From contig OY282367.1 in the NCBI GenBank assembly GCA_958295755.1, positions 1,120,022 through 1,184,021 on the forward strand: a stretch of 64,000 nucleotides of DNA. The letters run 5' to 3'. The translations under genes and the position numbers were made by a program. The notes beneath the pieces were generated by a model. The model was not told the origin of the DNA, made no database searches, and saw nothing but the letters and a program-made list of their open reading frames with translations. Source of the DNA: an uncultured Acidimicrobiales bacterium. GTDB lineage: Bacteria > Actinomycetota > Acidimicrobiia > Acidimicrobiales > Hopanoidiivorantaceae. Below are positions 11,401-52,786 of this stretch, piece after piece. Within the stretch, counting starts at the first letter, position 1. Each line of letters opens with the position of its first letter.

Positions 11401-11594
11401 GATGGACTGCCACAGACCCAGCCAAGACCGCTTGAAGCCTCATCTGCAAGTGCAGCAGCATCTCCCTCTTGCCCACCACCAGCACTCTCTCCCCCACCAC
11501 CAGCATTGTCCACCCCGCTAGGCTCGCACCCCTCCCCAGTCAAAGCCTCACAAATAAGCCGCTCCAGCCCACCCTCGGTGGTGTCAATGGTCAC
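8466..11594 (-). CDS. hsdR: Type I restriction enzyme, R subunit (HsdR)
   Basis: This 1042-aa protein is the translocase-nuclease of a type I R-M system, which cuts DNA lacking the methylation set by HsdM/HsdS. The N-terminal PD-(D/E)XK nuclease shows D-x-G-L-F-V-N-G-L-P and FELKNS near residue 188, followed by a QYKND motif. The SF2 motor has Walker A HSAGSGKS near 328, DEAHSS near 430, FAFTATP near 502 and QTLSRLNRAHPQ near 725. Two low-complexity inserts are present, Gly-rich near residues 30-55 and another near 450-475. The start is GTG, with GGGAGGTGAG rather far upstream (about 18 nt). hsdS and hsdM lie upstream on the same strand, separated by other defence genes. Confidence 0.95.
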   Translation of the reverse strand: MTIDTTEGGLERLICEALTGEGCEPSGVDNAGGGGESAGGGQEGDAAALADEASSGLGWVCGSPSDYDKEFCLDLAQLAAFLHATQPQTATALPALDIDSPDRRKLLTRIRSEIDKRGTVDVLRSGVKHHDHLIEFYFPTPSPGNPKATELFDGNRFSVTRQLRYSPANPGLALDLGLFVNGLPVATFELKNSLTKQTVADAVRQYKNDRDPREKLFSKGRCLAHFALDDSEAMFCTHLQGKKSIFLPFNKGTDDGAGNPPNPNGIKTDYLWREVLTRHSFADILENYVQVGIWPRYHQLDVVRRLLADAQSCGVGQKYLIQHSAGSGKSFSIAWLAHRLIALRNEDRPMFDSIIVVTDRVILDRQIEQTIKQFTQVRATVGHANNAGDLHKFIAEGKKIVVTTIQKFPFILDEIGDDHRDRNFAIIIDEAHSSQGGRTAAAMGKALAGREGDGGSGAGGSRIDGEDLDANQNADTDTITFEDSINEMMDARKPLANASYFAFTATPKNKTLEIFGKPDPQSNGKIRHLPFHSYTMKQAIQEGFIMDVLANYTPVESYYRLAKVVSDDPEYDAKKAQKKLRRYVENHEHAIRLKAEIMVDHFVEQVLNARKIGGKARAMVVTDGVERAIKYYHAISDYLTSTNSRCQAIVAFSGEHTYGSEQVTEVSINGFPSSQIARKIQEDPYRILVCADKFQTGYDEPLLHTMYVDKTLSDVKAVQTLSRLNRAHPQKNDVFVLDFMNNTDTIKEAFEPYYRATILAEETDPNKLHDLQADLDNSEVYLPDEIDELVKRYLEASMQDRAQLDPLLDICVERYSNDLVEDAQVDFKGKAKAFVRTYEFLASVLPYTNEDWEKRSIFLRFLVPKLPAPQEDDLSQGILQAIDMDSYRVERRTALKLVLPDEDGEIGPVPFEEGGTKSEAEMERLSQIINEFNNLFGNIVWDDQDRVHHMLTDYIPSRVATDEKYANARNHSDRQNAKVEHDKALARVMTEIMKDDAQLFKLFTDSEVFKTWLQNSNFRTTYEPPTLFFGKGQTESQRNVNM

Positions 11595-12934: not shown

Positions 12935-14320
12935 TTACGACTGAATTTCATCAGATCTGATATCAGGCAGATCAGCGGCCGCCTCTCGCACATCTAGTTT
13001 GCCGGTGACTACATCGGCTATCAGACTAGTGCGGTATTCCTCTAGCAGTTCAATCTCACGGCGAGTGCGAGCGATGGCTGCGTCTATATCAGATGTGAGG
13101 TTGTCTAGGTAGGCGACTATGGCTGTTTGTTCAGCTAGAGGTGGTAAGCAAGCGAATATTGACCCCAGTAGCGAATCTGATATAGTTGGATAATGCACAC
13201 CAGTTGAAATGGCTACTCCCTGACTCATTATGTACTCACTCATGAGCATATATCTAGTATATTCTGGCAATATATGTTGTCCCGGAGTAAGCACAGCAAA
13301 ACCAGTAGAACAAATTAGATCTCCATCAATGTGATCTGCGAACCAAATTGCTTGTAAATTAAATCTTACTTTTGAGACAATAGTGTCACCGACTTTAATC
13401 ACTCTACGAGCACTGGAAGGAGCGGTTCCAAACTTAACTTTGGTCGGTTTCCCAACTAGTTTTCCCGTCCCTACAGCATTAATTTCGAGATATTCAAACA
13501 CAAATTCTGGATCAGTTATTTCTGGAAGTGTCAATTCATTGATACCAAAACATTGCTTCAACCTAGACAACTCCCAATGCTCAGGAATATCCCCTAGCCA
13601 CTCAACACCAGAAGGTTTAAGAGGGACATCAGGGTCTAGCCCACGAGTAACAGTCTGCTGGATCACAGCGCGCTTGTACTCCTCCATCAGCTCAACCAAT
13701 TCTTGCTTCTGGGAGACCCCCCCCCGCAGCATTAGATTCACATTGTCAAGGTAGTCGACTATAGTTGCTTGCTCGGCTAGAGGTGGCAATGGGATAGAAA
13801 TAGATAAAATTCCAACATGAGAAAGACCGTATCTTGTCACTCCTTTGGCCGCAATATGAAATTGATATGATACTGCTTTGCTCTGCAAAGCACGGAAGAG
13901 ATAGCCTCCTAAAAGTTTGGTCGCGTCAGGATGCAACAAAGCCAAGTGATAACCAGATATGAGATCAGGAGCACTTACTGTGACAAGTGCTGGCACACCT
14001 ATATCATCCCATGTTTCAGAATCTTTGGTAATTAATACATCACTTTTCATGAGACGAAAACGATTGATTTCTTCATTAGTAGCAGTGGCATGCATAAAAT
14101 CAATATTTTCAGTAATACAATCATTTTTGTACACATCCACATAGTTACAAAGTCGCACTGGAATCTCATCTTCGTTAGAATGTTTATCAACATTGCTCAC
14201 TTGCATATCTACTACATTTCGCAAACGTTGCACTTCCCAATGCTCAGGGATATCCCCAAGCCAATTAATTCCAGAGGCTTTAAGTAAAGTTCTTTTTGTG
14301 GGAAATAAAGTAAAAGGCAT
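12935..14320 (-). CDS. hsdS: Type I R-M specificity subunit (HsdS) with internal poly-G tract
   Basis: This 461-aa HsdS has two target recognition domains. Each opens with the same W-L-G-D-I-P-E-H-W-E block (residues about 20 and 241) and closes with PLPPLAEQ or CLPPLAEQ plus a helical spacer (ELVELMEEYKRAVIQQ; EIELLEEYRTSLIADVV). It directs HsdM and HsdR to a bipartite DNA target. A run of nine G on the coding strand (13717-13725) falls at codons 199-202 (R-G-G-V) in the central spacer, where related proteins usually carry an I-D-x-x-I helix. Slippage there would give a half-length HsdS with only the first domain. The start lies 2 nt after the GHKL gene's stop codon. Confidence 0.94.
   Translation of the reverse strand: MPFTLFPTKRTLLKASGINWLGDIPEHWEVQRLRNVVDMQVSNVDKHSNEDEIPVRLCNYVDVYKNDCITENIDFMHATATNEEINRFRLMKSDVLITKDSETWDDIGVPALVTVSAPDLISGYHLALLHPDATKLLGGYLFRALQSKAVSYQFHIAAKGVTRYGLSHVGILSISIPLPPLAEQATIVDYLDNVNLMLRGGVSQKQELVELMEEYKRAVIQQTVTRGLDPDVPLKPSGVEWLGDIPEHWELSRLKQCFGINELTLPEITDPEFVFEYLEINAVGTGKLVGKPTKVKFGTAPSSARRVIKVGDTIVSKVRFNLQAIWFADHIDGDLICSTGFAVLTPGQHILPEYTRYMLMSEYIMSQGVAISTGVHYPTISDSLLGSIFACLPPLAEQTAIVAYLDNLTSDIDAAIARTRREIELLEEYRTSLIADVVTGKLDVREAAADLPDIRSDEIQS
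13717..13725. repeat. Poly-C9 (poly-G9 coding) tract in hsdS
   Basis: Nine consecutive C on the plus strand are flanked by A on the left and GCA on the right. The tract lies in the central spacer of hsdS and is in frame here. A-C(9-10)-GCA recurs in hsdM and at the LRR gene. Homopolymers of this length slip readily during replication. Confidence 0.95.
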
Positions 14321-14322
14321 AG

Positions 14323-16365
14323 TTAGATACCCATACTATTACTATCTGAATCGTCTTGATATAATCTAACCTTTTCAATCAAATCTTGAAGTTCGTCAAC
14401 AGACTTTGTTCTTTCAGTAAATTTAGAATACACCCACAGAACATTTTTAATTAGTTGGTCATAAGTTAAAACTCGTATTGAATACGCTTGTAATGATTCA
14501 ATATCAGCATTTTTAGTACTCTCATTATCCCATCCAGTAGGCAATTTACCAACTAGACAAATTGATTCAATTTTTTCATTATTATCATCAGTATAGTTAA
14601 GCAATTTATGCTCAAGAGCATCCTTATACTTTCTTAATTGTCCTTCTATATCAGATTTTGACAATTGAACCAAAGCCCTCTTCAACTCGATTATAACATA
14701 TCCACTTCCTGTCCTATATCTTATATCTAGTCTAACAGTGCTGCTATCCGGTAAACCATCTGCCACAGCTTGCAGTGTTTCTTCCATATGTTCATATTCC
14801 GTAGCTCTTTCCCAAGCTGGATCTAGCAACCATAGATTATCAAACAAAAACTCTTCCAAGATCCTTTCACGCACATTATCATCTACAATATTTCTGAATT
14901 TTTCAATTACAGCTAATCGTTCCGCAATAATTTCACCATATCGAATTTTTTCGATTGAAGAAATCTGATTAAGATGTTGCAAAAAGGATTCCACATTTGA
15001 GTCGTCAACGGCATCAAGTAATTCAACGGCTTCATTCATTTTTAGCATTTCAAATGTCAAGATACCATTGGCATAAAACTCATTTCTATATCGATAATCC
15101 ATTCCAGATTCAGCAATTGCTCCAAATATTTTTTCAGCTAAAGTCTTAAACGGACTTTCCAAATTATTATACCATTCTTTGACGTATGGATTATAGCTAC
15201 CAGCCTCTTCTACTCCCTTTTTAGCTTTTAGTTTATTTGTCTTTCCCCAAATTGCTTTGAGTTCATTTTCAATAAAATTCTTTAAAGCTTTATATCTCTG
15301 ATCATCTTCAGCTATCTTTTGTCGACTGGATGTGGCAATATCCTCTTTGTCGTCTTCATCCAAAAAATCTGCATTAATTTCGCCATATAAATATTTTGTA
15401 ATCATGCCACCCAATCTATACTCGCTTAAAATATCTTCCTGTGCTATTTTACCACGAACTACAACTGTAATTTTATTTAAATTCTCATCATCTGAAGTAG
15501 AGTCTAAATCATTAGAATGTCTTGCTATGGCGATCCAGCCTTTAATTTTATACGCCCCTTCCTTACTTATTTCGCCATGATCATCAAAATAATAAGGGCG
15601 CTCAAAGCACATTTTTTTAGGTGGATAGCCATCTAGATCCAATTTATTGCAATGTTTTGAATAGTCACAGTCACCGTAATTAAACAAAAATCTCGCTTTA
15701 TTGAAATAATCACGATCACTCAATGTGATTGCTTCACCATTAATTTTAACACAAAAATTATTTTCTTCATCGATCACACTAAATCTTCTAGCTATTCTCT
15801 TTTTGAGGGCATTCACTGTTCTACCATCAAGTTTCAAATTCTTTAAATCATAAATCTTAATTTTGGTTCCCGGTTGTGGACAGTCTTCGTCAAAATAGAT
15901 TTCGGTAGGTATATAAGGTTCTAATACATTCATAGGATCCTCATCAATAATTTTTTCTCTTATTTTCTCAGCATCTAGTAAAAACGATTCTTTCTTTCCA
16001 CCCCTCTTTCTTGTATGAACCTCAATTTTATTTGAAATAGCAAAAAGTGATAGCTTGCCAATTCCTTTTCTTCCCATTGGTTTACGTTTTCTTTCCTCTG
16101 TTAGTCCGCCGCTGCCACTCCTTCGCTGATATCCCACAAGCAGATATTTATTATTTACATCATCTAGATCCATTCCTATACCGTTATCCTTTACAGTGAT
16201 ACTCTTGTCTTCCTTGTTAAAATCAACTAGGACTTCAGTAGCATCTGCATCCCAAGCATTAGCAATCACTTCAGCTAGCACAGCTGGTGTATTGCTATAA
16301 AGATTAATCCCCAGATGATTCAGGACATTTAGACTGATACTCATCCTGTATGGGCTATCAGACAT
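14323..16365 (-). CDS. GHKL (MORC/MutL-like) ATPase with C-terminal PD-(D/E)XK nuclease domain
   Basis: This is a 680-aa protein. The N-terminus is a GHKL ATPase: the N-box AEVIANAWDAD near residue 32, DNGIGMD near 60 and GRKGIGKLSL near 96. The middle is of unknown fold. The C-terminus has nuclease features: EEFLFDNLWLLDPAWE near 510, LDIRYR near 545, VIIELKRA near 556 and a Q-x-x-K-Y element after it. The gene overlaps the cytosine methylase by 8 nt. GHKL ATPases of the MORC/MutL type paired with Dcm-like methylases and fused nucleases were predicted to be R-M systems (Iyer, Abhiman and Aravind, 2008). I infer this is the restriction component. It is visibly AT-richer than its neighbours, suggesting recent transfer. 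Confidence 0.82.
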   Translation of the reverse strand: MSDSPYRMSISLNVLNHLGINLYSNTPAVLAEVIANAWDADATEVLVDFNKEDKSITVKDNGIGMDLDDVNNKYLLVGYQRRSGSGGLTEERKRKPMGRKGIGKLSLFAISNKIEVHTRKRGGKKESFLLDAEKIREKIIDEDPMNVLEPYIPTEIYFDEDCPQPGTKIKIYDLKNLKLDGRTVNALKKRIARRFSVIDEENNFCVKINGEAITLSDRDYFNKARFLFNYGDCDYSKHCNKLDLDGYPPKKMCFERPYYFDDHGEISKEGAYKIKGWIAIARHSNDLDSTSDDENLNKITVVVRGKIAQEDILSEYRLGGMITKYLYGEINADFLDEDDKEDIATSSRQKIAEDDQRYKALKNFIENELKAIWGKTNKLKAKKGVEEAGSYNPYVKEWYNNLESPFKTLAEKIFGAIAESGMDYRYRNEFYANGILTFEMLKMNEAVELLDAVDDSNVESFLQHLNQISSIEKIRYGEIIAERLAVIEKFRNIVDDNVRERILEEFLFDNLWLLDPAWERATEYEHMEETLQAVADGLPDSSTVRLDIRYRTGSGYVIIELKRALVQLSKSDIEGQLRKYKDALEHKLLNYTDDNNEKIESICLVGKLPTGWDNESTKNADIESLQAYSIRVLTYDQLIKNVLWVYSKFTERTKSVDELQDLIEKVRLYQDDSDSNSMGI

Positions 16366-17386
16366 TTGAGGCCTCCAAGATTGAACTACCGATGGCTTTG
16401 CCTAGTTTGACTGGGACAGCGTTTCCGATGTGGCGAGCCAGTAAATGGACAGGAACAGGTTCTCGCTTTTGTGCAAATTTATAGCTCTTTGGAAATGTCT
16501 GGAGCAGGGCTGCCTCTCTAAGCGAGATAGTGCGATCTTGCTCAGGGTGTCCGAAGCGGCCAGTGCTATAGTAGCAGAACTGGGTTGTTATTGTGGGTGC
16601 TGGCTTGTCCCATCTCATTCTTCCATATGATGCTGGATAATATGCCTTGCTGTGGCAATGGCTTATGATGTCTCGTTCCCAGTCCTTCCACGATCCCCCT
16701 GGTTTGGACTGCTGGATTCTCTTCTTATTTCTGTCTGCCAACTTGAGGGTAGTGTGCATGTGGTCTTTGGGATCAGTTTCGCCGTCGCGTAGGCTTGGCA
16801 AGTCTTTTATGAAATCTGCAACGGTCACTCTTTTGGAAGATGGGGCAGGCAGTGAAATGCCTCCCAGCCTTGAAGCCACCAAAACCAGACGCTTCCTTGT
16901 CTGAGGCACACCAAAATCCCTGCACGATAATACATCGTCGTCATACTCATAGCCTTCGCTATCCAGTGTCTTCTTGAAGTCTGAGAAGGCGGGATGCTGA
17001 CGCAACCCGAGAACGTTTTCCATCGACACAATGTCGGGCTTGCCTTCTTCTATCAGCCGAGCGAATTTTTCAATCAGTGAGCAGTCGCTTGCGTTAGATG
17101 TGCTTGTCTTTCGTGTGTATGCAGAAAATGGCTGGCAGGGGGCACAGCCTACCATGACAGTTACGTCTGCTCCCTCGTAGTATGGGGCGATGTCAGCAAA
17201 GCTGATGTCTCTGATGTCGGCAGCAATGAAATCTGCTCCGCGGTTGTTCGCTTCATAGGCATAGCGGCATTGCTCGTCAATATCAAAGCCTGCCTTGACC
17301 TTGATGCCAGCTTGGGTCAAGCCCTTTGTGAGACCACCTACCCCTGAGAAGAGATCGACAGCATGAATTGCTTTTGTGCTATTCAT
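16358..17386 (-). CDS. DNA (cytosine-5) methyltransferase
   Basis: This 342-aa C5-cytosine methylase has motif I DLFSGVGGLT (residues 11-20), the catalytic PCQPFS (C84), ENV at 123-125, QTRKR near 157 and motif X RHIGNAVPVKLG near the C-terminus. The target sequence cannot be read from the protein. ATG at 17386 is preferred, with GGTGA 5 nt upstream; a GTG at 17395 would add three residues. Its stop overlaps the GHKL-nuclease gene by 8 nt, which supports a methylase-restriction pair. The start lies at the broken 3' end of a fic remnant. Confidence 0.92.
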   Translation of the reverse strand: MNSTKAIHAVDLFSGVGGLTKGLTQAGIKVKAGFDIDEQCRYAYEANNRGADFIAADIRDISFADIAPYYEGADVTVMVGCAPCQPFSAYTRKTSTSNASDCSLIEKFARLIEEGKPDIVSMENVLGLRQHPAFSDFKKTLDSEGYEYDDDVLSCRDFGVPQTRKRLVLVASRLGGISLPAPSSKRVTVADFIKDLPSLRDGETDPKDHMHTTLKLADRNKKRIQQSKPGGSWKDWERDIISHCHSKAYYPASYGRMRWDKPAPTITTQFCYYSTGRFGHPEQDRTISLREAALLQTFPKSYKFAQKREPVPVHLLARHIGNAVPVKLGKAIGSSILEASNV

Positions 17387-18000
17387 TCTGTTCACCGCTT
17401 TCTGGTGTTGGGACTGCTACTTCTGGCGGATTGCTGCATGTCATGAGAGCAACTTCGGCTGATGCCTTCACTCCCTCAAAAAAGAACTGAAGCCATGCTT
17501 CCCAGTCGCCTGTTTGACGCACATGGGATAGCAGACTGTAGTAGCTGCTCTGATGCTGCTTGAAATAGGTGCTCAGCGGTGATCTGATTACTCCTTCTTG
17601 AGATAACTGAAATATTATCAGACTTCTGCCTATTCTTCCATTTCCATCAAGAAATGGGTGGGTGGTCTCGAACTGTAGGTAGTGAGGGCTACTCGGACTA
17701 GGGTGGGGATGCCTTCGCCTTCGGTGTGAATGAACTGCTCTAGGGCTGCCATGCAGTCGGGCACGGCGTGGGGTGGAGGTGGGACGAAGTGGGCGTTGCC
17801 TGGGCGGGTGCCTCCTATCCAGTTTTGGGAGGTGCGGAACTCGCCTGGTTGTTTGCTGATGCCCGGCTTGCCTGACATCAAGATGGCGTGGGCTTCACGG
17901 ATTAGGCGGTTGGACAGTGGGAACCCATCTTCGATTTGGATTGTCTCGTAGTGGCCGGTTGGTTTGGCTACTGGTGGAGTGGAAGAATGGGCATATTTAA
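17379..18000 (-). pseudogene. Decayed Fic-family AMP transferase gene
   Basis: Two adjoining frames together spell the core of a Fic protein: GEFRTSQNWIGGTRPGNA and FVPPPP in one frame (about 17690-17850), and FETTHPFLDGNGRIGRSL, the FIC motif, in another (about 17600-17675). A one-base loss near 17670-17677 separates them. The usual N-terminal region is missing: sequence upstream of GFPLSNRLIREAHAIL does not match the family. The C-terminal HTH region is also missing, as the frame stops at 17379 soon after FFFEGVKASAEVAL. Intact fic genes commonly sit inside type I R-M operons, so this is probably a relic of the ancestral hsdM-fic-hsdS order. Confidence 0.8.
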
Positions 18001-18012
18001 CATGGGCGACTT

Positions 18013-18789
18013 TTATCGCATGCCACTGCCGACCAAACGAGGAATGTCGCGATCAGCACCATCTCTAAACGCACCTAAGTTCGGATATTGCTTATCCGCG
18101 TTTCGGGTAAGGTACAGACTTTCTTTTCTTCCCAGATCTTCAATATCTTCATGGACGACTAAGCTAATGAAATTGTGTTCAGCTCTCAGCATTTCTAGAA
18201 GAAGAAGGGCAACATCTTTTGCTTTGCTGTTCCCATTGACACCAAAAATATGAAAATTTTGATTCTTGTACGACAAAGACCAGTCTATATCGGGGAGGCT
18301 GTCTAACCCTGGAGAAACACTGGCTTCTGGTGAATAACTGGCTAGTCCTGAGAAAACAAATTCGTTGAGATCATTATAAAATTCACTTCTAATTATCTCT
18401 CTGCCCCAATATCGCATATTACAAACTTTTTGCACGCATCCTGCAAATTGCAAAATACTTTCATAGAGCATATTGAGAGGGGCATCAATATACAAATTTC
18501 CTTCATCGTAATTAACCTTGTTATTAAAAAGAATACTGTCAAAGATTCTTTTTCTTGTATCAGTGCTGATGTCATAAGTATACGAGAGACGCATCAGAGA
18601 CAGTCCAAAGTCACATATACGCACATATTCACTGCCTTTGGGGCTTTCGTTGAGATATATCTCCAACATGTCGCCGTCTTCGTGACATATCGGGATAATC
18701 AATTGGTAGTCGCCTTCGCGACGCTCATACAGGTCAAAGCTAGCTGACCGTGATTCTTTGAGGACAGTCCTTACTGCGTCAAGATCCAT
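18013..18789 (-). CDS. DUF1828-domain protein (long form)
   Basis: This 258-aa protein has an N-terminal half that resembles DUF1828: YERREGDYQLIIPI, then GDMLEIYL and VRICDFGLSLMRL. The C-terminal half is alpha/beta with no family I recognise. AGAGGAGA about 8 nt before the ATG at 18789 fixes the start and lies inside the end of the upstream gene, which overlaps it by 11 nt. It is probably produced together with that upstream protein. It parallels the shorter pair at 7837-8429. Confidence 0.72.
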   Translation of the reverse strand: MDLDAVRTVLKESRSASFDLYERREGDYQLIIPICHEDGDMLEIYLNESPKGSEYVRICDFGLSLMRLSYTYDISTDTRKRIFDSILFNNKVNYDEGNLYIDAPLNMLYESILQFAGCVQKVCNMRYWGREIIRSEFYNDLNEFVFSGLASYSPEASVSPGLDSLPDIDWSLSYKNQNFHIFGVNGNSKAKDVALLLLEMLRAEHNFISLVVHEDIEDLGRKESLYLTRNADKQYPNLGAFRDGADRDIPRLVGSGMR

Positions 18790-19291
18790 CAAAAAGTCTC
18801 CTCTGCATACTGAGAACAGGGTATTTTCCGAAATCAACTATGTTGATATCCCTGCTAAAGACTTCAAGTGCTTCATCTAATGTGCTGTACTCGTCTGTTA
18901 CTCTCCTATTTTTCTCTTGGGGTTGGATAATACCAGATTCAATATCTTCAGATGTGAGCCAGTGGATGTGTGGCTTGTCATAGTGCCCGTCCTGTGCCCT
19001 ACTGGTTTCTCCATGTGCGCCGTTATAGCGCAGAAGGGTGATGTCACCCATACCTTGCATGTTTGAGCAATATTGCAAGCCAATGGTAAAATTTTCGATA
19101 AACCTCGTGCTCCTACGGATGAAGACCTCGAATTGAGTTCTGTCGCTGGCGTCGGAGCTTAACTCCATATTGTAGCGTTCGTGACCCCCTTCGATCTTGT
19201 AGTCAGATACTGGCTTTCGTGATCTCACTATTTTAGGCATATTAATTAGTTCCTGCAGTTGTTCGTCGGTGAGTGGTGGTTGGGCATCCAT
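18779..19291 (-). CDS. Uncharacterised protein coupled to DUF1828
   Basis: This is a 170-aa soluble protein (PLTDEQLQELINMPKIV at the N-terminus, HIHWLTSEDIESG near residue 112). The layout resembles proteins annotated as DUF6978, but I am not certain. The ATG at 19291 is preferred because a near-consensus promoter ends 10 nt upstream, leaving almost no 5' leader; a longer TTG start would overlap the -35 box. It overlaps the following DUF1828 gene by 11 nt. The pair looks like an independent transcription unit inserted after hsdM. Confidence 0.65.
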   Translation of the reverse strand: MDAQPPLTDEQLQELINMPKIVRSRKPVSDYKIEGGHERYNMELSSDASDRTQFEVFIRRSTRFIENFTIGLQYCSNMQGMGDITLLRYNGAHGETSRAQDGHYDKPHIHWLTSEDIESGIIQPQEKNRRVTDEYSTLDEALEVFSRDINIVDFGKYPVLSMQRRLFDGS

Positions 19292-19301
19292 AGTGAGCAG
19301 T

Positions 19302-19330
19302 AGTATAGACGATGAGTGTTGTCTTGTCAA
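19302..19330 (-). promoter_or_regulatory. Near-consensus sigma-70 promoter, leaderless
   Basis: The minus strand reads TTGACA (19330-19325), 17 bp, then TATACT (19307-19302), with the ATG 10 nt further on. Transcription would start within about 3-4 nt of the start codon. This is the clearest promoter in the island and drives the 170-aa and DUF1828 pair. Confidence 0.75.
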
Positions 19331-19378
19331 ATCGTAATGGGGTATTTGCGATATGGCTGATTGGGAATTTCGCTGCTA

Positions 19379-21391
19379 TCACTCCTCAGACCCTACGATC
19401 TTGGTGATCAGCCCTTCGGTCTCTTGCTCCAGGGCTAGGATGTCGGCTCGGATTTCTTCTAGGGGGCGCAGGGGTTGGGGTTTGTAGAAGTGGCGGGTGA
19501 AGCTGATTTCATAGCCAATCTTGGTGCTTTCGGGGACATACCAGGCATCAGGGGCATATGGCAGTACTTCTCGTTGGATGAAGGCTTCTATGCCGCCCTC
19601 TTCTAGGAGGGGGACTTGCTCGGTATCGCGAAGGGTGGGGTCGGGTTCGTATTCCACTGTGGCGGGCTTGCCGTTGATCGTGGTCTCGAAGAGACCTTGG
19701 ATGGGATTCGGGGCGGTGTCTTTGTGAATTTTTTTGATGACGGGGTGCGTCTCCGGTAAGGTGTCTGTCTTTGATGGCATCGCACCAGCAGCCACACCCC
19801 CCCCCCGCAGTTTCTTGATTTCGCTCGCTTTGTAAACCCGTTCTGGGTCAATCCCCTCCAACCGCAACGGGCGTTCTACTTTTACTTTCCAGTAACCGAA
19901 GGCTTGGTTGGGGAAGATTTTAGACTGCTCGGTTTCTTCAAATGCCATGAAGGTATCGCAGATGCGTTGGATTTCGACCTCGCCTAGTTCGCAGTTTTTA
20001 CTACCTAGATTTTTGCGGAGAGGCTGATGCCATTGGGTGGCATCTATCAACTGGGTTTTGCCTTGGCGATGGGCGGGTTTGCGGTTGGTGAGCACCCAGA
20101 TATAGGTGGCGATGCCAGTGTTATAGAACATGTTGAGGGGCAGAGCGACTATGGCTTCCAGCCAGTCGTTTTCTATGATCCAGCGGCGGATGTTGCTTTC
20201 GCCTTGGCCTGCGTCGCCAGTGAAGAGTGAGCTGCCATTGTGGACTTCGGCGATGCGACTGCCTAGGGGCGTGTTGTGCTTCATCTTGCTGAGCATGTTG
20301 ACTAGGAACAGCATCTGACCGTCGCTGGAGCGGGTGACTAGCGAGTATTCGGGATCGTCGGCGTGGTTGATAACGAAGCGGGCATCGTGCATTGCCCTCT
20401 TGCCGCCCATACGTTCAAGGTCGGTTTTCCAGCTTTTGCCGTAGGGCGGGTTGGAAAGCATGAAATCAAACTCCATGCTGGGGTAGGCATCGTTGGAGAG
20501 AGTAGAGTGCTCGGGGCCGCCGACTATGGTGTCGGCCGCTTCACCTTCGCCTTTGAGTAGCAGGTCGGCTACACAAATGGCGTGGGTTTCTTGATTGATC
20601 TCTTGGCCGTAGAGATGAACAGAGACATCTTTATTGCGTTCAGCGGCTAGGTCGGTGAGTGTGTCTTCGGCGAGGGTGAGCATGCCGCCTGTGCCGCACG
20701 CACCGTCGTAGAGGAGGTAGGTGGTGGACTCGAGCTGGTCGGCTACAGGCAAGAAAACTAGGTTGGCCATGAGCTTCACGGCATCTCTGGGCGTCCAGTG
20801 CTCGCCTGCTTCTTCGTTATTTTCTTCGTTGAAGCGGCGGACTAGCTCTTCGAAGATGGTGCCCATAGCGTGATTGTCAAGGGGCGGATATTTGACAGAG
20901 CCGTCGGGGTTGAAGACTGGGTTGGGACTGAGGTTAATGTCGGGTGAGGTGAGCTTTTCAATGAGATTGCCGAGGACATCGGCTCCAGAGAGGCGGGAAA
21001 TCTGGCGGTTGAACTCGAAGCTGTTGAGGATCTCTTGGACATTTGGGGAGAAGCCTTGGAGGTATGCTTCGAAATCGGAGCGGAGCTGCTGCTGGTTGGC
21101 GATAGATTTGAGGTCTTTCATCCTGAACTGCGATGTGTTATAGAAGGGGTGGTCGGAGGCTGCACGGAGCGGGGCATCTTGATGGGTTATACCATTATCA
21201 TCTAGGATTCGTTTTTGCGCCAAGACATCTTCTTTGGTGTCTTCAAGCACGGCGTCTAAACGGCGCAGGACCGTCATCGGGAGTATCACATCGCGGTATT
21301 TGCCTCGCACATACAAGTCGCGGAGCACATCGTCGGCGATGCTCCAGATATAGTTGGCAATCCAGTTAAAATTTGGGGCTGATTCGTTCAT
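19379..21391 (-). CDS. hsdM: Type I R-M methylase subunit (HsdM) with internal poly-G tract
   Basis: This 670-aa N6-adenine methylase has the SAM-binding DGACGTGGML near residue 230 and the catalytic SNPPYG near 315, preceded by the helical HsdM N-terminal domain. It methylates the target chosen by HsdS. The ATG at 21391 (M-N-E-S) is preferred to an upstream in-frame ATG at 21457, because the family starts near NWIANYIWSIADD. A run of ten G on the coding strand (19797-19806) encodes R-G-G-G-V near residue 530, after the catalytic domain and before the C-terminal region that contacts HsdS. The frame is intact here. The gene is separated from hsdS by about 5 kb of inserted genes. Confidence 0.94.
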   Translation of the reverse strand: MNESAPNFNWIANYIWSIADDVLRDLYVRGKYRDVILPMTVLRRLDAVLEDTKEDVLAQKRILDDNGITHQDAPLRAASDHPFYNTSQFRMKDLKSIANQQQLRSDFEAYLQGFSPNVQEILNSFEFNRQISRLSGADVLGNLIEKLTSPDINLSPNPVFNPDGSVKYPPLDNHAMGTIFEELVRRFNEENNEEAGEHWTPRDAVKLMANLVFLPVADQLESTTYLLYDGACGTGGMLTLAEDTLTDLAAERNKDVSVHLYGQEINQETHAICVADLLLKGEGEAADTIVGGPEHSTLSNDAYPSMEFDFMLSNPPYGKSWKTDLERMGGKRAMHDARFVINHADDPEYSLVTRSSDGQMLFLVNMLSKMKHNTPLGSRIAEVHNGSSLFTGDAGQGESNIRRWIIENDWLEAIVALPLNMFYNTGIATYIWVLTNRKPAHRQGKTQLIDATQWHQPLRKNLGSKNCELGEVEIQRICDTFMAFEETEQSKIFPNQAFGYWKVKVERPLRLEGIDPERVYKASEIKKLRGGGVAAGAMPSKTDTLPETHPVIKKIHKDTAPNPIQGLFETTINGKPATVEYEPDPTLRDTEQVPLLEEGGIEAFIQREVLPYAPDAWYVPESTKIGYEISFTRHFYKPQPLRPLEEIRADILALEQETEGLITKIVGSEE
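19797..19806. repeat. Poly-C10 (poly-G10 coding) tract in hsdM
   Basis: Ten C on the plus strand have A on the left and GCA on the right, the same context as the hsdS and LRR tracts. A one-base slip would replace the last ~140 residues of HsdM with an unrelated tail. In this sequence the reading frame is open through the tract. Confidence 0.95.
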
Positions 21392-21534
21392 GTGAGTTGA
21401 TAGTGCTAACGACTGTGTTGCTATCTTGAAGACATCTAGTAAATTGCCAGAAACCAAGATAAGCCAGATTACGAGTACTCTACTCTTCTTCCTCCATCTG
21501 ATGCCGAAATGCCTGACGTATCAAACTCATAACA

Positions 21535-23244
21535 TTAAGAATTAGGTTTATTAACAGGTAAAGAAGGATATGGCCATACCTTCACAGCTATTTTTGCTAA
21601 ACGATCTGCACGATTAATGATATTTGCCTCATTCCAGTCGGCAATATTTCTTAGATCACTGTTTAATTCCAAGGGAGATTTAGAAAACCCTCCTTCCATG
21701 TCACGTTTCTCAGAAAACGGTTTGTCACTGTATTCTGAATTATAACCTGTAAGTGTCAGGTTGCCAAGTGTGTGCAAATATTTACTGTGTATGTGTTGCC
21801 AATCAGAGCCAAGCGATTGTTTCCACTCATCTGAAAGATTCTCGTTTTGTGGCATAATATGCTCAATGCTATAGTCACTGATTACAACACTTTCTTTGCG
21901 TTCGTAGTTTTCAAGTCTTCTCATGAGATATTTTATGCGCTTGAAGTCATAAATATCTCTATTAATTAGCTGGTCAATAAACTCTTCATCACCTGGAAAT
22001 TTACCGCCTTCCCCAAGCGACAGGAATTGGGTTTCTAAGCTTTCTATATAGTTCTCATTGTCTATAGCAGCAGCAAACGAGGCAAAGATTTTATTCATAG
22101 GATTTGGCTTGTATCCGCATACAGCTCTTCTGAATACATAGCTTTCAATTAATCTAATTGCATAAATAACTTCATTTGTATTAATTAATCCATTATCATA
22201 GTCACAGTATATTTGAAGCATTAAAGGATATGCTACCTCAGCTACCAATTCCCGTAAATCAGAAAAGGCAACTGATAGGAGAGTATTATTTTCATGCCCA
22301 AGAGCAATATTGCAATAATATTTTGAAAACATTTTAACCTCACCTAGTACTGACTCAGCAGTTTCACTTGAATAACCACGGTCTACAGCATGTTTTTTAA
22401 AGTCATTGTATACTTCAGCTTTCTTTGGCAACTTACTATTTTTTACTGTGAGATAATATCTTATAAAGCTATCAAATTGTTCTCTATAATTATTTTGTCC
22501 AAATTCATCCTCCATTGGCCTCCAATAATTGTTATACAAACGCTTCTGCATTACTTGTTCCAAATCCATAAGAACATAATTGCGAATTAAGTCAGCTTTA
22601 CTCAATGCTAGTCCCTTTGAATTCAGACTTTCAAATATCAGCTGTGGATTATCTTTTCCCCTCTCTAGTGTAATATCAACAACGCGAAGATTGCGTAGAC
22701 CTCTGCATAATGTTTCAATTTCTATATCTGAACTATTGAGTTCCTTTTCAAAATATTCAAAATTATCTACTATTCTATTCGAATAATCACGTGGTACATC
22801 TGATTGATCAATAATTGACTTAAATGTTTCTTTGTCTGCCTTGCTTAGAATTAACTTGTAGCGGCGTTCATCTTCTTCTTCAGAATTCAGTAGATAGTAA
22901 TTTCGTATTTTATTCACAGAAAAACCGTCAACTGGTTCTTCACCTTTTTTCAAATATCTTGCCAATGCTTCTAAAAGTAGTGAAACACTGGTTAATCTTT
23001 GTTGCCCATCAATGATTTGCATCTGTGAATTATCAGTAACTGGACTGGTGCCCTCAGTAATATATACGATAGATCCAAGAAAGTGTAGATGCTCTCTATT
23101 GGGCCTTCCAGCACTCAAAGTATCATTCCATAACTGACGGCACTCTTTAATGCCCCAAGAATATGTGCGCTGAAAAATCGGCACTGTATATTGTACTCTG
23201 GATATCCCAAGAATATCCAAAAAATTAGCATCCACCGCCTTCAT
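21535..23244 (-). CDS. DUF262/DUF1524 (GmrSD-like) protein
   Basis: This 569-aa protein starts with a ParB-like DUF262 domain (VPIFQRTYSW near residue 21, DGQQRLTS at 79-86) and ends with a DUF1524 HNH nuclease domain (YSIEHIMPQN near 463, then LGNLTLTGYNSEYS). This is the architecture of GmrSD-type modification-dependent restriction enzymes, in which nucleotide hydrolysis by DUF262 licenses DNA cleavage. GAGGAGGT 5 nt before the ATG gives a strong start. It lies upstream of hsdM on the same strand and begins 31 nt after the amidohydrolase stop. The gene is AT-rich compared with the core genes. Confidence 0.88.
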   Translation of the reverse strand: MKAVDANFLDILGISRVQYTVPIFQRTYSWGIKECRQLWNDTLSAGRPNREHLHFLGSIVYITEGTSPVTDNSQMQIIDGQQRLTSVSLLLEALARYLKKGEEPVDGFSVNKIRNYYLLNSEEEDERRYKLILSKADKETFKSIIDQSDVPRDYSNRIVDNFEYFEKELNSSDIEIETLCRGLRNLRVVDITLERGKDNPQLIFESLNSKGLALSKADLIRNYVLMDLEQVMQKRLYNNYWRPMEDEFGQNNYREQFDSFIRYYLTVKNSKLPKKAEVYNDFKKHAVDRGYSSETAESVLGEVKMFSKYYCNIALGHENNTLLSVAFSDLRELVAEVAYPLMLQIYCDYDNGLINTNEVIYAIRLIESYVFRRAVCGYKPNPMNKIFASFAAAIDNENYIESLETQFLSLGEGGKFPGDEEFIDQLINRDIYDFKRIKYLMRRLENYERKESVVISDYSIEHIMPQNENLSDEWKQSLGSDWQHIHSKYLHTLGNLTLTGYNSEYSDKPFSEKRDMEGGFSKSPLELNSDLRNIADWNEANIINRADRLAKIAVKVWPYPSLPVNKPNS

Positions 23245-23275
23245 TAGATTACCTCCTCGTTGTCTGTCTCTTCCA

Positions 23276-24592
23276 TCACCCCGTGCCGTTGGGAGCGTCG
23301 TGTAGTTGGATGTCTAGCATTTTGGCGGCGTTGCCTCTTACTATTTTCCAGAGGGTGTCTTGGGGGAGGTGTCCCATCATTTCTTCTGCTACTTGGAGGG
23401 TGTTGGGCCAAGTGGAATCGGTGTGGGGATAGTCGGTCTCGAAAGTAACATTGTTGATGCCGACTTTTTCTAGCGAATCCAAACCGTGACGGTCTCTGAA
23501 GAAGCACGAATACATGCTCTGGTAGTAGTAGGTTGACGGAGGCTCTGGCACTATGTCTCTGACTCCGCCCCAAGCTCGATGTTCCATCCAGACATCATCG
23601 GCTCGCTCCAGAATATAGGGCACCCAGCCCATCTGACCTTCGGAGTAGGCGATTTTGAGGTGCGGATAGCGCACGAGAATGCCTGAGAACAAAAAGTCGC
23701 TCATGGATGCCATGGCGTTGTTGAAGCTAAGGGTAGCAGCCACAGCGGGTGGAGCATCGGGTGAAGCAGCGGGCATCTTAGATGACGACCCTATATGCAT
23801 GCACACAACCGTGCGTGTTTCTTCACAGGCGACAAAGAACGGATCCCAATAGCCAGTGTGGATGCTCTCTAGCCCCAAGTTTGACGGTATCTCACTGAAG
23901 CAAACCGAACGACTGCCCCTCTCGGCGTTGCGGCGCACCTCTTTTGCGGCCTCTTCTACATCCCAGAGCGGGATAATACACAGCGGCAACAACACTCCCC
24001 CGCTGTCGCCGCACCACTCTTCTACCATGAAATCGTTGTATGCCTTCACGCAAGCCAGAGCCAGCTCTTTATCGCTGGCTTCGGCGAAGGTCTGGCCACA
24101 AAAACGAGGGAATGTGGGAAACGACAACGACATATCCACATGGTTCGCCAGCATGTCTTTCACTCGCTCTTTGGGGTCGTAGCAACCGGGGCGCATCTCT
24201 TCGTAAGTGATGGGCACGGCTTCCATATCGTCTCGATGAAAGCCCACGGCGGCGACGTGTCGCTTGTTGGGATAGACGAGATCTTCGTAGAACCACACAT
24301 CACCCCACGGCGCATCGGGTGCGTCAAGGTCGTATTGATACATGGCAGGGCCGCCGACATATTTGATGTCGCCCACTCTGCGCCGCTCCACACGAGGGCC
24401 ACGCTCTTTGAACTTTTCGGGGAGCCATGCCTGCCAGAGATGAGGCGGCTCTACAAGATGGTCGTCAACACTGATGATCATGGGGATGTTGGACGAGCCG
24501 TTTGAAGCAGGTGGGTCGCCCATGAATGCGACACCCGGGGTTCTGGGGAATGCTCCGTTTTCTGTGCTGTTGGATGTTCCTTCTGCTGACAC
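23276..24592 (-). CDS. Amidohydrolase-family (Amidohydro_2) metal-dependent hydrolase
   Basis: This is a 438-aa TIM-barrel hydrolase of the amidohydrolase-2 family. Metal and catalytic motifs are SVDDHLVEPP near residue 41, MHIGSSS near 270, YSEGQMGW near 320 and FETDYPHTDSTW near 390. Relatives include decarboxylases and hydrolases of aromatic or dicarbonyl compounds. The substrate is unknown. A GTG start at 24592 with AGAGGAAA upstream is taken; an internal ATG just before IISVDDH is an alternative. It is the last non-defence gene before the island on the minus strand. Confidence 0.88.
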   Translation of the reverse strand: MSAEGTSNSTENGAFPRTPGVAFMGDPPASNGSSNIPMIISVDDHLVEPPHLWQAWLPEKFKERGPRVERRRVGDIKYVGGPAMYQYDLDAPDAPWGDVWFYEDLVYPNKRHVAAVGFHRDDMEAVPITYEEMRPGCYDPKERVKDMLANHVDMSLSFPTFPRFCGQTFAEASDKELALACVKAYNDFMVEEWCGDSGGVLLPLCIIPLWDVEEAAKEVRRNAERGSRSVCFSEIPSNLGLESIHTGYWDPFFVACEETRTVVCMHIGSSSKMPAASPDAPPAVAATLSFNNAMASMSDFLFSGILVRYPHLKIAYSEGQMGWVPYILERADDVWMEHRAWGGVRDIVPEPPSTYYYQSMYSCFFRDRHGLDSLEKVGINNVTFETDYPHTDSTWPNTLQVAEEMMGHLPQDTLWKIVRGNAAKMLDIQLHDAPNGTG

Positions 24593-24647
24593 CTTGGTTT
24601 CCTCTTTCTTTGTTATGGCGTGAGATGACAGGATATTCGCTGTTACT

Positions 24648-24705
24648 ATCTGGTGCTGTTGAATCTGGACTGCTGAATCTGGTGCTGCTAAGTCTGGTGT
24701 TGCAA
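24648..24705. repeat. 14-15 bp tandem repeat upstream of the amidohydrolase
   Basis: Four imperfect units containing (A/G)TCTGG-TGCTG lie in the 310-bp gap between the divergent amidohydrolase and LRR genes. Apart from this array and the promoter described at 24836-24870, I see nothing else in that gap. Confidence 0.85.
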
Positions 24706-24835
24706 GAGTCCCGTCTAACCTTCTATTAGTTTAGCAAGGGGTGTGATGAGCATCGGGCGATGTTCTGATGCTCTGGTTGACCTGAATAGTAAGTAGTCAG
24801 AGAGAATGAATTTACCCCAAGAAACTTTTAGATGA

Positions 24836-24870
24836 TTGCCTCTCGGAACAAGCATGTGGTAAAATACCAC
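24836..24870 (+). promoter_or_regulatory. Putative promoter with overlapping palindrome for the LRR gene
   Basis: TTGCCT (24836-24841), 18 bp, then TAAAAT (24860-24865) make a plausible promoter. A perfect inverted repeat GTGGTA-AAA-TACCAC (24856-24870) covers the -10 box and could be an operator. The ATG with a GAGGTG Shine-Dalgarno follows at 24903. Confidence 0.4.
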
Positions 24871-24931
24871 CACAGGCATCTACATTACCGTGAGGTGAAA
24901 CCATGACAAAAATGTCAGTCAGAGCCAGCGA

Positions 24932-24940
24932 CCCCCCCCC
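24932..24940. repeat. Poly-C9 tract controlling the LRR gene reading frame
   Basis: Nine C, preceded by A and followed by GCA, lie ten codons after an ATG at 24903 that has a good Shine-Dalgarno (GAGGTG, 5 nt spacing). With nine C the frame ends after 60 codons at 25085. With eight C the ATG would read straight into the signal peptide and LRR protein (721 aa). The context is identical to the tracts in hsdS and hsdM. Confidence 0.92.
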
Positions 24941-24963: not shown

Positions 24964-27069
24964 GTGCTACGGGGGTCGGCTGTGAGGAGGCCGGCAGTGT
25001 TAGTGGGGAGGCTCTTGAGGGGGTTGGGGGTGGTGGTTGCTTTGTCGGTGCTTGGTGCTTTGATGTCTGTGGTTGTGGCATCTAGCCCCGGTGGGACGGC
25101 GGGTTTCGGGTCTGCGACTAGGATTCCCCCCGCACGACCCCAACCGGGCGGCACGCCTTCGCCACCTCAGTTGCCTGATTTGAATCCTGACCTCTGCGCT
25201 ACTACCTTCATGCCTCTAGTATATTCTTCCGGAAGGCGAGATTCAAACGCTACAGAAGCTGATTGTCGCACGATTATTGCTTGGCGTAACGCTGTTGTGA
25301 ATCACCCAGGTTCCGTTATTGGCCCCAATCACCCTCTAGCACTGATAGGCACTGGCGACTACACAAGATTCGACCAATGGGCCGATACAGGTCTGGTGTC
25401 GCAGTTGTTTTATGTAGATACGAGTCAGACATTTTGGACCAGTCAGTATATCATAAGTGCTATCCATTCGCACACTTATGGTTTAGCGGGCCCGCTTCCT
25501 GGGGAACTGCCGCACTTGCGAGAACTTCGTTTGCCTGGTAACTCTTTTTCGGGGGAGCTACCTTCTTGGATATATAATCACCCAAAGCTGGAAGACATAC
25601 GTCTTCAAGACAACCGTCTAAGTGGTGAGGTGTCGGCTTTCACAGCTCCAAAGCTTGAGTATTTGGATCTAAGCGGAAACTATTTCTCTGGCAGTCTTCC
25701 AGATTTTGATACAGCTGGAATGTTCGGGCTGATAAATATTGGTTTGAGCGACAATCAATTCTCAGGGCCGATCCCGGCTAGTTGGAGTGGTTTCGCTAAC
25801 AGCGGAAGAAACCGTTTCGACAGAAAAGGAATACAGCAGCTAGATATTTCTCAAAATAATATCTCAGGAGATTTGCCCAGCTGGGTTTCCAATCTCCCAT
25901 TCCGCAACACTCCTGGCGGAGATGCATTTCTGCCGGGCTATCTGAACTTGGTTCGTATGTCAAATAACAACCTTTGTATACCAGACAGCTTTCAGATACC
26001 AGCATATAGAAAAGCTGTCCCGTACCACCGCCAGTATGCCAAGGTCCGGTTGGAGCTAGAACCCCAACAATGCTCGACTTCTAAAACCTTGATTAGAAGA
26101 GCACAGAATATACAGTTTGAGCCAGTACGCACACCCGGGCAACAACCTACCGACGATCCTGCGGGTCTCAAAGTCACCTGGAGCAAACCCAGCGGTATGA
26201 CCGGGGCAGTAACTTACCGGGTACAACTGTTTTTGACTACAGACCAAGAAGTTATCAGGGGAAGTGGTAGAACATACGACAAATACTGCTATGGGCACTT
26301 TTTCTGGCAAGTAAATGTTGGGCCGTTAGCTACGGCGAATCTTGAACGCACAGTAACTCGCAGTGACTGTAGTGTAACAGACACGCGCACTATTTTTGAC
26401 CCCACAAAATACACCGTAGATGTCTCAGTGTTGCTGAAAAATCAGCAGACAACTTATGTTGGCTCAGCGACTTTCTCAAACGCTTGGAGCGTTTTCACAG
26501 CCGATAACCCTCAGAAAACATTCCAGGACGTAGCCAACATAATACGCCTGCCCTTCCAGCGCAGCATCTGGATCTGGGACGCCACCAACCAAATCTGGTT
26601 TGAGAGAAGCCAAGACCAACCAAACTTCGCCACACTCAACCTGCAACCAGGCGACTCACTAGCATTCCAGCGAACCGTGCCTGTCTCCTGGCTAACTCCA
26701 GCAGGTCTCAGCACAGCAGATGAAGACACCCCCGTCCAACTCCAAAACGGCTGGAACATAATCAGCGCAGGTGCCGTTGCCGCCCGCCCCCAAAACAACA
26801 ACGGTGCCTACTTCATAGACAGCAGCCTCGTAGTCTGCGCCTCCCTACAAGGAGTCATCGCCATTATGCGCTACAACTCCCAAACAAGACAATTCGACGC
26901 AGAGTTGCCATGTCACCCACGAGCAGAAGCCAACCTAACACGCACCCCAGCAATCGGCACCATCGACGATCTAGAAGAAGCCGACATACTCTTCATCTAC
27001 TTCCAGACAATCATACCAGTCACTATCCAATGGGACGCCGACAATGACAAATACATGCCAGTCTCTTGA
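24964..27069 (+). CDS. Secreted leucine-rich-repeat protein, predicted phase-variable
   Basis: The open frame encodes 701 aa from a GTG at 24964. A signal peptide follows an Arg-rich start (VVVALSVLGALMSVVVASS). Residues about 160-330 hold plant-type LRRs of the L-x-G-x-x-F-S-G-x-L/I-P form (LRELRLPGNSFSGELP, LEYLDLSGNYFSGSLP). Residues about 375-500 resemble a fibronectin-like fold, and the C-terminal 200 residues are of unknown type. No membrane anchor or sortase motif is visible, so it may be released or held by its C-terminus. The GTG has no Shine-Dalgarno; the better start is the ATG at 24903, which is out of frame by one base because of the C9 tract. The gene may therefore be off in this sequence. 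Confidence 0.82.
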   Translation: MLRGSAVRRPAVLVGRLLRGLGVVVALSVLGALMSVVVASSPGGTAGFGSATRIPPARPQPGGTPSPPQLPDLNPDLCATTFMPLVYSSGRRDSNATEADCRTIIAWRNAVVNHPGSVIGPNHPLALIGTGDYTRFDQWADTGLVSQLFYVDTSQTFWTSQYIISAIHSHTYGLAGPLPGELPHLRELRLPGNSFSGELPSWIYNHPKLEDIRLQDNRLSGEVSAFTAPKLEYLDLSGNYFSGSLPDFDTAGMFGLINIGLSDNQFSGPIPASWSGFANSGRNRFDRKGIQQLDISQNNISGDLPSWVSNLPFRNTPGGDAFLPGYLNLVRMSNNNLCIPDSFQIPAYRKAVPYHRQYAKVRLELEPQQCSTSKTLIRRAQNIQFEPVRTPGQQPTDDPAGLKVTWSKPSGMTGAVTYRVQLFLTTDQEVIRGSGRTYDKYCYGHFFWQVNVGPLATANLERTVTRSDCSVTDTRTIFDPTKYTVDVSVLLKNQQTTYVGSATFSNAWSVFTADNPQKTFQDVANIIRLPFQRSIWIWDATNQIWFERSQDQPNFATLNLQPGDSLAFQRTVPVSWLTPAGLSTADEDTPVQLQNGWNIISAGAVAARPQNNNGAYFIDSSLVVCASLQGVIAIMRYNSQTRQFDAELPCHPRAEANLTRTPAIGTIDDLEEADILFIYFQTIIPVTIQWDADNDKYMPVS

Positions 27070-50047: not shown

Positions 50048-50593
50048 GTGACTGACATTGAGGCTGGCCCTGAGGCTGACTTACCCCGTAGCCGATGGCG
50101 TGTGACTCACTTTCTCATAGTGTTGGGGTTTCTGGCTATGGCAGGATTCTGGATTTGGGCATTTTCGCCCTTCCCCACACGGGGACACCCCGATACTCTG
50201 GACGACAAAGCATTCCCTGAAGCCGCTGAACCCCGTTGCGCCATAACAATGAAACTCATAGACGACCTCCCCCGCGACTGGAACATAGACAACCCTGAGC
50301 AACTAGCCGAACAAGTAACTGCAGGTACCGACCTACTAGAACCTCTAGTAGCCGACCTTCGCAACTTAGCGCGCGTCGTTACAAACACCGACGAAGCACG
50401 AAAAGTCAGCCTCTGGCTAGACGACTGGAATATCTACCTAGACGACCGCAACAAACTAGTAGCTAAGCTCCGCCAAGGCGAGCGAGCCGAATTCATCTAC
50501 ACAGCCCGAGACGGCATCCAAATAGCCAGAATAGTAGATCGCTTCGCCCAAGTAAACGACATGACCTCATGCGAAACACCGGATGATATATAG
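50048..50593 (+). CDS. Membrane-anchored protein of unknown function
   Basis: This is a 181-aa protein with a short cytoplasmic N-terminus, one transmembrane helix (THFLIVLGFLAMAGFWIWAF, residues about 20-39) and an external domain with two cysteines (PRCAITM and TSCETP). It starts with GTG 16 nt after the PBP stop, so the two are probably co-transcribed. That suggests a role at the cell envelope. The start region is partly duplicated (GACATTGAGGCTG twice). I recognise no family. Confidence 0.75.
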   Translation: MTDIEAGPEADLPRSRWRVTHFLIVLGFLAMAGFWIWAFSPFPTRGHPDTLDDKAFPEAAEPRCAITMKLIDDLPRDWNIDNPEQLAEQVTAGTDLLEPLVADLRNLARVVTNTDEARKVSLWLDDWNIYLDDRNKLVAKLRQGERAEFIYTARDGIQIARIVDRFAQVNDMTSCETPDDI

Positions 50594-50642
50594 GCGCGGA
50601 TTTGGAGAGCCCTGGTTTTAGGGAGACAGCGGGGAGTAGCTA

Positions 50643-51353
50643 TCAGCGGTGAGAGACATGAGGGTTGTCAGGGATGTGCCATCTCCATGATAAGTCAGAT
50701 TTTACGCCGATGCGGGTGGTTTGAGCTGGGAATTTGGGTGGGGAAATGCCGTCGTCATGAATTGTGATTGACAGATCGGCGATACCAGAAAAGGGCATAT
50801 GGTTTGCTTCGCTGGTGGCACCAATACTGGTGGCCCCAATAACTAGGTCAATGCCGTTTTGGTCACCGGTGATACCTAGGGCTTGGGTTAGTTTGGCTGG
50901 GCCGCTGCAGAGATCGGTTTCTTTGCGGGCAGCTGAGCGGGCTTGGAACATTTCTTCTATGCCGGCTAGTGGCTCCAAAGCTCGTAACAGCACTGCGGCG
51001 CATTCGCCGTCGATCCCACAGACCACATTAGAGCACCAGTGCATTCCATAGGTGAAATAAACATACAGATGCCCCGGCGGGCCAAACATTACCTCGTTGC
51101 GCTTGGTTTTGCCTCTGTGCCCGTGACTGGAGATGTCGTCAGTGCCACCGTATGCTTCAACCTCAACAATGCGCCCGGCTCGAACTCTGCCGCTTCCCAC
51201 GCCACCCCCGCCCCCATCGTTACCCGAAAAATCAAGCGACTCACAGACAAGCACTTTGTTCAGAAGTTTCAACGACAAATCTATCGGGTCGCAACTGTAG
51301 AACGATCTCGCCAGAGGCTCCCCCAGCTCTTGCGATAGCAACGCTTTATCCAC
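50643..51353 (-). CDS. 3-methyladenine DNA glycosylase (AAG/MPG family)
   Basis: This 236-aa base-excision repair enzyme removes alkylated purines. Recognisable blocks are GRIVEVEAYGGTDDISSH near residue 60, with the catalytic Glu, then VMFGPPGHLYVYFTYGMHW near 88 and CSGPAKLTQALGI near 147. A glycine-rich insert near residue 45 and a duplicated GATSIGATS segment reflect local tandem duplication. Its start overlaps the argH stop by 8 nt, so it is probably read with the arginine operon. Confidence 0.92.
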   Translation of the reverse strand: MDKALLSQELGEPLARSFYSCDPIDLSLKLLNKVLVCESLDFSGNDGGGGGVGSGRVRAGRIVEVEAYGGTDDISSHGHRGKTKRNEVMFGPPGHLYVYFTYGMHWCSNVVCGIDGECAAVLLRALEPLAGIEEMFQARSAARKETDLCSGPAKLTQALGITGDQNGIDLVIGATSIGATSEANHMPFSGIADLSITIHDDGISPPKFPAQTTRIGVKSDLSWRWHIPDNPHVSHR

Positions 51354-52776: not shown

Positions 52777-52786
52777 GGACCAGCAC

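Follow-up and report, generated by a model that had tools for sequence, protein, structure and literature searches.

Long leading-strand poly-G/C tracts suggest genome-wide phase variation of restriction-modification and surface genes in the genus of Candidatus Hopanoidivorans

We analyzed a 64-kb window (positions 1120022-1184021 of a single contig of 2,292,181 bp, genome G000; window positions count from 1) from an uncultured Acidimicrobiales bacterium of the genus of Candidatus Hopanoidivorans. In this window, the specificity gene hsdS and the methyltransferase gene hsdM of a type I restriction-modification (R-M) system and a leucine-rich repeat (LRR) gene each carry a run of nine or ten cytosines on the plus strand (Table 1). 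The original prediction, made from the letters of the window, had proposed these three genes as a phase-variable set. The three tracts were found exactly where they had been placed, and the gene assignments were upheld by Pfam (Methylase_S for hsdS, N6_Mtase and HsdM_N for hsdM, LRR for the third). The proposal of a phase-variable set was also supported, but the set amounts to about 60 tracts instead of three. Genome-wide slipped-strand phase variation of surface, methylation and defence genes is very probably the best explanation of these tracts, with changes of tract length within populations and altered gene products as its expected outcome. About 60 hypermutable poly-G/C contingency tracts would thereby gain or lose one base at a time by replication slippage. 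Phase variation of the R-M and surface-type genes has strong support from the enrichment of long runs, the classes of genes affected, open reading frames (ORFs) kept intact out of frame, the recurrence of tracts in relatives, and differences in length and frame.

Run-length spectra were obtained by pattern searches over the whole genome and in sampled stretches. The genome (2.29 Mb) contains 69 C or G runs of at least eight bases, 62 of them at least nine bases long and only seven of exactly eight, and runs of nine outnumber runs of eight (32 versus 7). In the window, no further C or G run of at least seven bases was found; the length spectrum goes through five and six, then a gap, then nine. 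The tracts are well above chance length, as is typical of simple sequence repeat contingency loci. The excess over chance claimed for the window is thus real, but it is not specific to the window, as three runs per 64 kb are ordinary for a genome with 62 of them. The same inverted length spectrum, i.e. an excess of long over shorter runs, was found in Candidatus Hopanoidivorans cymbastelae m_cyhl3 (G001), the sole genome of the same genus compared, and in an Acidimicrobiales metagenome-assembled genome (MAG; G021). The former has 67 runs of at least nine bases, and its runs of seven and eight number three and two (40 stretches). One genome of the same family had 8 runs of at least nine bases, and 18 genomes of other families in the order had 0-12 each, mostly in the larger genomes. 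Runs of exactly seven C were also in excess, but they trace to a CRISPR-like array (50417-53257 of the genome) and are not tracts. This array has 40 copies spaced at 70-75 bp, with both G6 and C7 in the repeat, and it encloses a G10 run at 52107. No Rfam elements were found near the tracts.

With few exceptions, the tracts are concentrated in surface and R-M genes according to Pfam and PADLOC, and a change of one base would alter the product or its expression in all three window genes and at most tracts genome-wide. The R-M genes with tracts comprise hsdS, hsdM, two type ISP enzymes with several tracts each, and a DUF1156 methylase. Further tract genes encode an N6 methylase, a type III methylase, a C5 methylase, an SspD/PAPS-reductase-like protein, and a HATPase. 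The surface-type genes encode many LRR proteins (some of more than 4000 amino acids), RCC1 lipoproteins, and prepilin-like proteins, the last recognized by eye from the motif GxTLQTLIVTAVLV with no Pfam match. Several tract genes are out of frame as assembled, and large ORFs are intact behind out-of-frame tracts.

In the window, hsdS is open for 461 amino acids with C9. A run of 8 gives 210 and a run of 10 gives 209 amino acids, with a stop soon after the first target-recognition domain (TRD). The G-run is central between the two TRDs, so that C9 corresponds to a fused S subunit and the other lengths to a half S subunit, as in systems of the NgoAV type. Slippage would toggle between the two-domain and the half-subunit forms, and type I specificity would probably be changed or abolished. 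A specificity switch appears likelier than a simple ON/OFF switch, because hsdS of NgoAV is arranged in the same way, and there the 208-aa half-subunit goes with a change in specificity (PMC9577141). For hsdM, C10 gives 692, a run of 9 gives 617 and a run of 11 gives 636 amino acids, with residues beyond about 550 out of frame. Slippage there would exchange the final ~140 residues for a short tail read out of frame, and would probably switch off both the methylase and the nuclease.

The ATG of the LRR gene joins the frame of the long LRR ORF only if the tract loses one C or gains two. As read from the sequence, the gene is predicted to be OFF as assembled, unless a weak internal GTG at 24964 serves as the start. 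The N-terminus of the ORF is hydrophobic and resembles a signal peptide, and the product is predicted to be a secreted or surface LRR protein. Slippage would connect it to, or disconnect it from, the ATG that follows the ribosome-binding site. The genes of its paralogues (35-51% amino acid identity) likewise bear N-terminal tracts.

Tracts recur in relatives, and at one gene at the same codon. The SspD/PAPS-reductase-like gene (1200684 of the genome) has a tract at codon 8, which is C10 and full length here and 9 bases and out of frame in its orthologue in Candidatus H. cymbastelae; the two proteins are 67% identical. In seven other Acidimicrobiia MAGs, members of this family share one common internal site with G10, G10, G11, G12, G12, G15, and G15, in frame in some MAGs and out of frame in others. 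Tract length at one site thus differs between related genomes. Type ISP genes have C-terminal tracts, and DUF1156 methylases have tracts, in the present genome, in Candidatus H. cymbastelae, and in the Acidimicrobiales MAG G021. In the DUF1156 methylases of the latter two genomes, including several paralogues in G021, the tract falls within the DPFAGGG motif or close to it, or else midway along the protein. Some Gemmatimonadota MAGs have G/C runs of 15-21 near relatives of the SspD/PAPS-reductase-like gene. Nucleotide comparison of the tract orthologues of the two Hopanoidivorans genomes gave no alignment spanning the tracts, the sequences being too diverged, and protein comparison was used instead.

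The tracts are also locked to one replication strand. With dnaA at 2,036,042, the C-runs lie on the plus strand along one replichore and on the minus strand along the other, i.e. G is on the leading strand in 54/55 runs when a mixed paralogue cluster near the terminus (928-941 kb) is left out, and in 59/62 runs when it is counted and the terminus is set opposite dnaA. The three window tracts are all C on the plus strand because the minus strand is the leading strand on that chromosome arm. Tract genes lie on both strands (23 leading, 16 lagging), and genes on the leading strand have G as the coding base, those on the lagging strand C; therefore, the coding strand is not the cause of the lock. 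In Candidatus H. cymbastelae, neighbouring runs on contigs agreed in strand in 32/36 cases. In G021, 48/52 runs obeyed the rule, and the strand flip between 1.37 and 1.55 Mb of its main contig forecast the approximate position of dnaA, which was afterwards located at 1.34 Mb. In an Acidimicrobiales chromosome (G022), the rule held for 15/17 runs. It is not universal, as the genome of a Longimicrobiales symbiont (G024), also with long G/C runs, obeyed it in only 8/17. GC skew was rejected as the cause, given the G5:C5 ratio of 380:267 in short runs versus 54:1 for the tracts. Campylobacter did not serve as a strand control, its runs being too few and scattered.

The original prediction had further noted that all three tracts share an A on the left and GCA on the right on the plus strand, which was confirmed. 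Counted on the C strand over 54 non-redundant runs of the genome, A on the left (37/54, p = 1e-7, versus about 0.33 in short runs) and G on the right (38/54, p = 9e-9, versus about 0.31 in short runs) are enriched genome-wide, with both together in 28/54. However, GCA is not a rule, as it occurs on the right in only 9/69 runs of at least eight bases. The preference for G on the right was repeated in Candidatus H. cymbastelae (41/64) and G021 (47/52); that for A on the left was not repeated in G021 (22/52). Codon or amino acid need explains neither the flanks, as had been predicted, nor the orientation, since the coding base tracks the replication strand and the genes lie on both strands. We infer that the lock arises from a replication-strand asymmetry in slippage or in tract upkeep. 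Tentatively, and with somewhat less than even confidence, Acidimicrobiales tracts may be made or kept by a replication-coupled process acting on one strand (a G-run on the leading strand being a G-run in the lagging template) and preferring a C-G(n)-T context. The direction of replication would then set which loci vary and how fast they switch, perhaps in connection with NucS-type repair. As to the flanks, one guess would be erosion by transient misalignment that leaves the right G, which needs a C.C mispair; however, AC3+ is a hotspot in Escherichia coli (PMC13250602), and this does not fit the left-A preference.

The repair background would permit such slippage. No match to the MutS family was found in four genomes (G000-G003), and a NucS homologue is present in both Hopanoidivorans genomes. 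NucS of Mycobacterium smegmatis does not repair indels of 1-2 nt (PMC11551767). Therefore, slippage at long runs would go uncorrected. It could be argued that mutational bias is the whole explanation, i.e. that leading-strand G-runs grow wherever they are tolerated in a cell with a strand-asymmetric replisome and no MutS, and that their placement in surface and defence genes reflects relaxed constraint instead of selection. The strand lock regardless of gene orientation, the flank bias, the missing MutS match, and the tracts in intergenic sites or housekeeping genes agree with this view. However, missing MutS alone cannot explain the tract density, because two relatives of the order (G002 and G003), also with no MutS match as far as tested, have 8 and only 2 runs. 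Free growth would also not make runs of 7 and 8 rarer than runs of 9. Further points against bias alone are the large ORFs preserved behind out-of-frame tracts and the presence of tracts in the same families, once at the same codon, in relatives that are only 40-67% identical. Mutational bias alone is therefore an unlikely account.

Slightly less probable is slippage of RNA polymerase or the ribosome, which would yield a constant mix of products from one genotype with no heritable switching of the DNA. G/C runs of 9-10 can slip in transcription too, and the assembled sequence leaves several genes out of frame. However, the rule tracks the replication strand and not the coding strand, and homologous tracts differ in length. 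It is less probable again that the tracts are mainly recombination seams for domain shuffling, with length change secondary. The type ISP pair, with a shared module up to the tract and divergence after it, agrees with this view, but most tracts, including those of hsdS and hsdM in the window, are N-terminal or single and have no paralogous module. An assembly artefact, with wrong run lengths or false tracts, is very improbable: homopolymer length is error-prone and some contigs of Candidatus H. cymbastelae end at or near tracts, but a class of runs of at least nine bases only, sorted by gene type and replichore, appears in independent assemblies from different studies and is missing from other genomes of the order, which leaves one-base length errors as the possible fault.

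Several observations weigh against genome-wide phase variation. Each site has one assembled length, one strain per species was compared, and variation within a population was not seen; assembled lengths of long homopolymers may also be wrong by one. The earlier statement that no tract lies in a core gene holds inside the window but not genome-wide, where tracts occur in pth, in a proline linker of ribonucleotide reductase, in a thiolase-like gene, and at intergenic sites. Relatives with no tract at the same codons, which the original prediction had named as evidence against itself, were found in part. HsdM relatives from other families of the class (71-76% identical) have no tract at those codons and lack an insertion of 7-10 amino acids that HsdM has at the tract here, diverged HsdS relatives from other families have neither a tract nor a length change, and neither window gene has a clear counterpart among the tract genes of Candidatus H. 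cymbastelae. Therefore, both tracts are gains in this lineage. The SspD/PAPS-reductase-like gene, in contrast, keeps its site.

The two type ISP genes (282251-285894 and 1094620-1095040 of the genome) contain five and three G-runs. At the C-terminal runs, which lie at the target-recognition end, the frame determines which of the alternative C-terminal modules is joined on. A module of ~95% identity common to both genes ends at the tract (285633 versus 1094620) and the sequences differ beyond it, suggesting tract-linked module shuffling. Module swaps were also considered at several pilin and LRR tracts; these proved mostly to be small indels once aligned with gaps, and only the type ISP pair is still mosaic. 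The prepilin-like genes form a tandem family near the terminus (924500-944000, 956000-964000, and 1406993), in both orientations, and each member has a C/G run immediately in front of its hydrophobic GxTLQTLIV segment; recent duplicates have C9 versus C10 and hence different frames. The runs at 410779 and 413176 are both C10, have flanks identical at 200/200 bases on each side, and are each directly 5′ of a gene of ~690 amino acids; judging from this identity, the pair is a recent segmental duplication.

In the window, hsdR, hsdM and hsdS share one locus with other genes interspersed, among them those of a HATPase nuclease and a C5 methylase (Table 1). The nested HATPase and C5 methylase pair, together with the type I genes, DUF1828/DUF6978 genes and a GmrSD-like gene, constitutes a compact defence island.

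Table 1 Tracts, tract genes and neighbouring defence genes in the window.
Feature	Window position	Strand	Evidence or remark
G9 tract, hsdS coding strand (C9 on +)	13717..13725	-	Codons for LRGGV, central conserved region between two target-recognition domains
hsdS, type I specificity subunit, 461 aa, full-length state	12935..14320	-	Pfam Methylase_S E=1.2e-13; PDB 1yf2 S subunit aligned over 21-445
G10 tract, hsdM coding strand (C10 on +)	19797..19806	-	Inside 7-10 aa insertion
hsdM, type I methyltransferase subunit, 692 aa, full-length state	19379..21457	-	Pfam N6_Mtase 3.3e-49, HsdM_N 4.6e-22
C9 tract at codon 9 of LRR gene	24932..24940	+	Out of frame at 9 (predicted OFF), in frame at 8 (721 aa)
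Shine-Dalgarno-like GAGGTG (24892-24897) and ATG start (24903-24905) of LRR gene	24892..24905	+	Direct reading; order GAGGTG-AAACC-ATG, 5′ of tract
Downstream LRR reading frame, intact, 701 aa from internal GTG	24964..27069	+	Pfam LRR_1 5.7e-14, LRR_8
hsdR, type I restriction subunit, same locus, no tract	8466..11594	-	Pfam HSDR_N, SWI2_SNF2
HATPase-type restriction enzyme, between hsdS and hsdM, no tract	14323-16365	-	Pfam/PADLOC
C5 cytosine methylase, between hsdS and hsdM, no tract	16358-17395	-	Pfam/PADLOC
GmrSD-like (type IV) restriction protein, upstream of hsdM, no tract	21535..23244	-	Pfam/PADLOC

Names and sources of related MAG records suggest that this bacterium and Candidatus H. 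cymbastelae are sponge symbionts. An open-access literature search found no description of phase variation in Acidimicrobiia, and nothing on a replichore-locked tract rule or on the A-left/G-right flank preference. With the present results, phase variation on a large scale would reach uncultured Acidimicrobiia that apparently live in association with sponges. The genes affected suggest clonal diversification of phage defences, methylomes, and a surface coat of LRR proteins and pilins, and genes that look "broken" in sponge MAGs are in many cases probably in an OFF state. As a simple quantitative rule, the replication-strand lock lends itself to testing in any phase-variable genome and bears on the strand-dependence of slippage.

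Poly-G/C phase variation in Campylobacter, Neisseria, and Helicobacter is similar in having long G/C runs in R-M and surface genes, frame shifts upon ±1 changes, and tens of loci per small genome. The present system differs from these in belonging to sponge Acidimicrobiia, in having NucS and no MutS match, in the lock to one replication strand, and in the A-left/G-right preference. The hsdS tract resembles the polyG switch of NgoAV in Neisseria gonorrhoeae (PMC9577141), where a G-run between the hsdS halves yields, upon ±1 changes, either a half-subunit (208 aa in NgoAV and 209-210 aa in the present genome) or a fused one; however, the assembled state here is fused, and hsdM of the same system has its own tract. 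A repeat within hsdM is also found in the type I system of nontypeable Haemophilus influenzae, where it turns the methylase ON and OFF (PMC7394358), whereas the repeat here is a poly-G run close to the C-terminus, in a linker insertion specific to this lineage. Finally, homopolymeric-tract phase variation in Mycobacterium tuberculosis (PMC11898584; NucS link, PMC11551767) is likewise actinobacterial and associated with NucS-type repair blind to small indels, but the tracts described here are a class of long G/C runs that is concentrated in R-M and LRR genes and locked to one replication strand.

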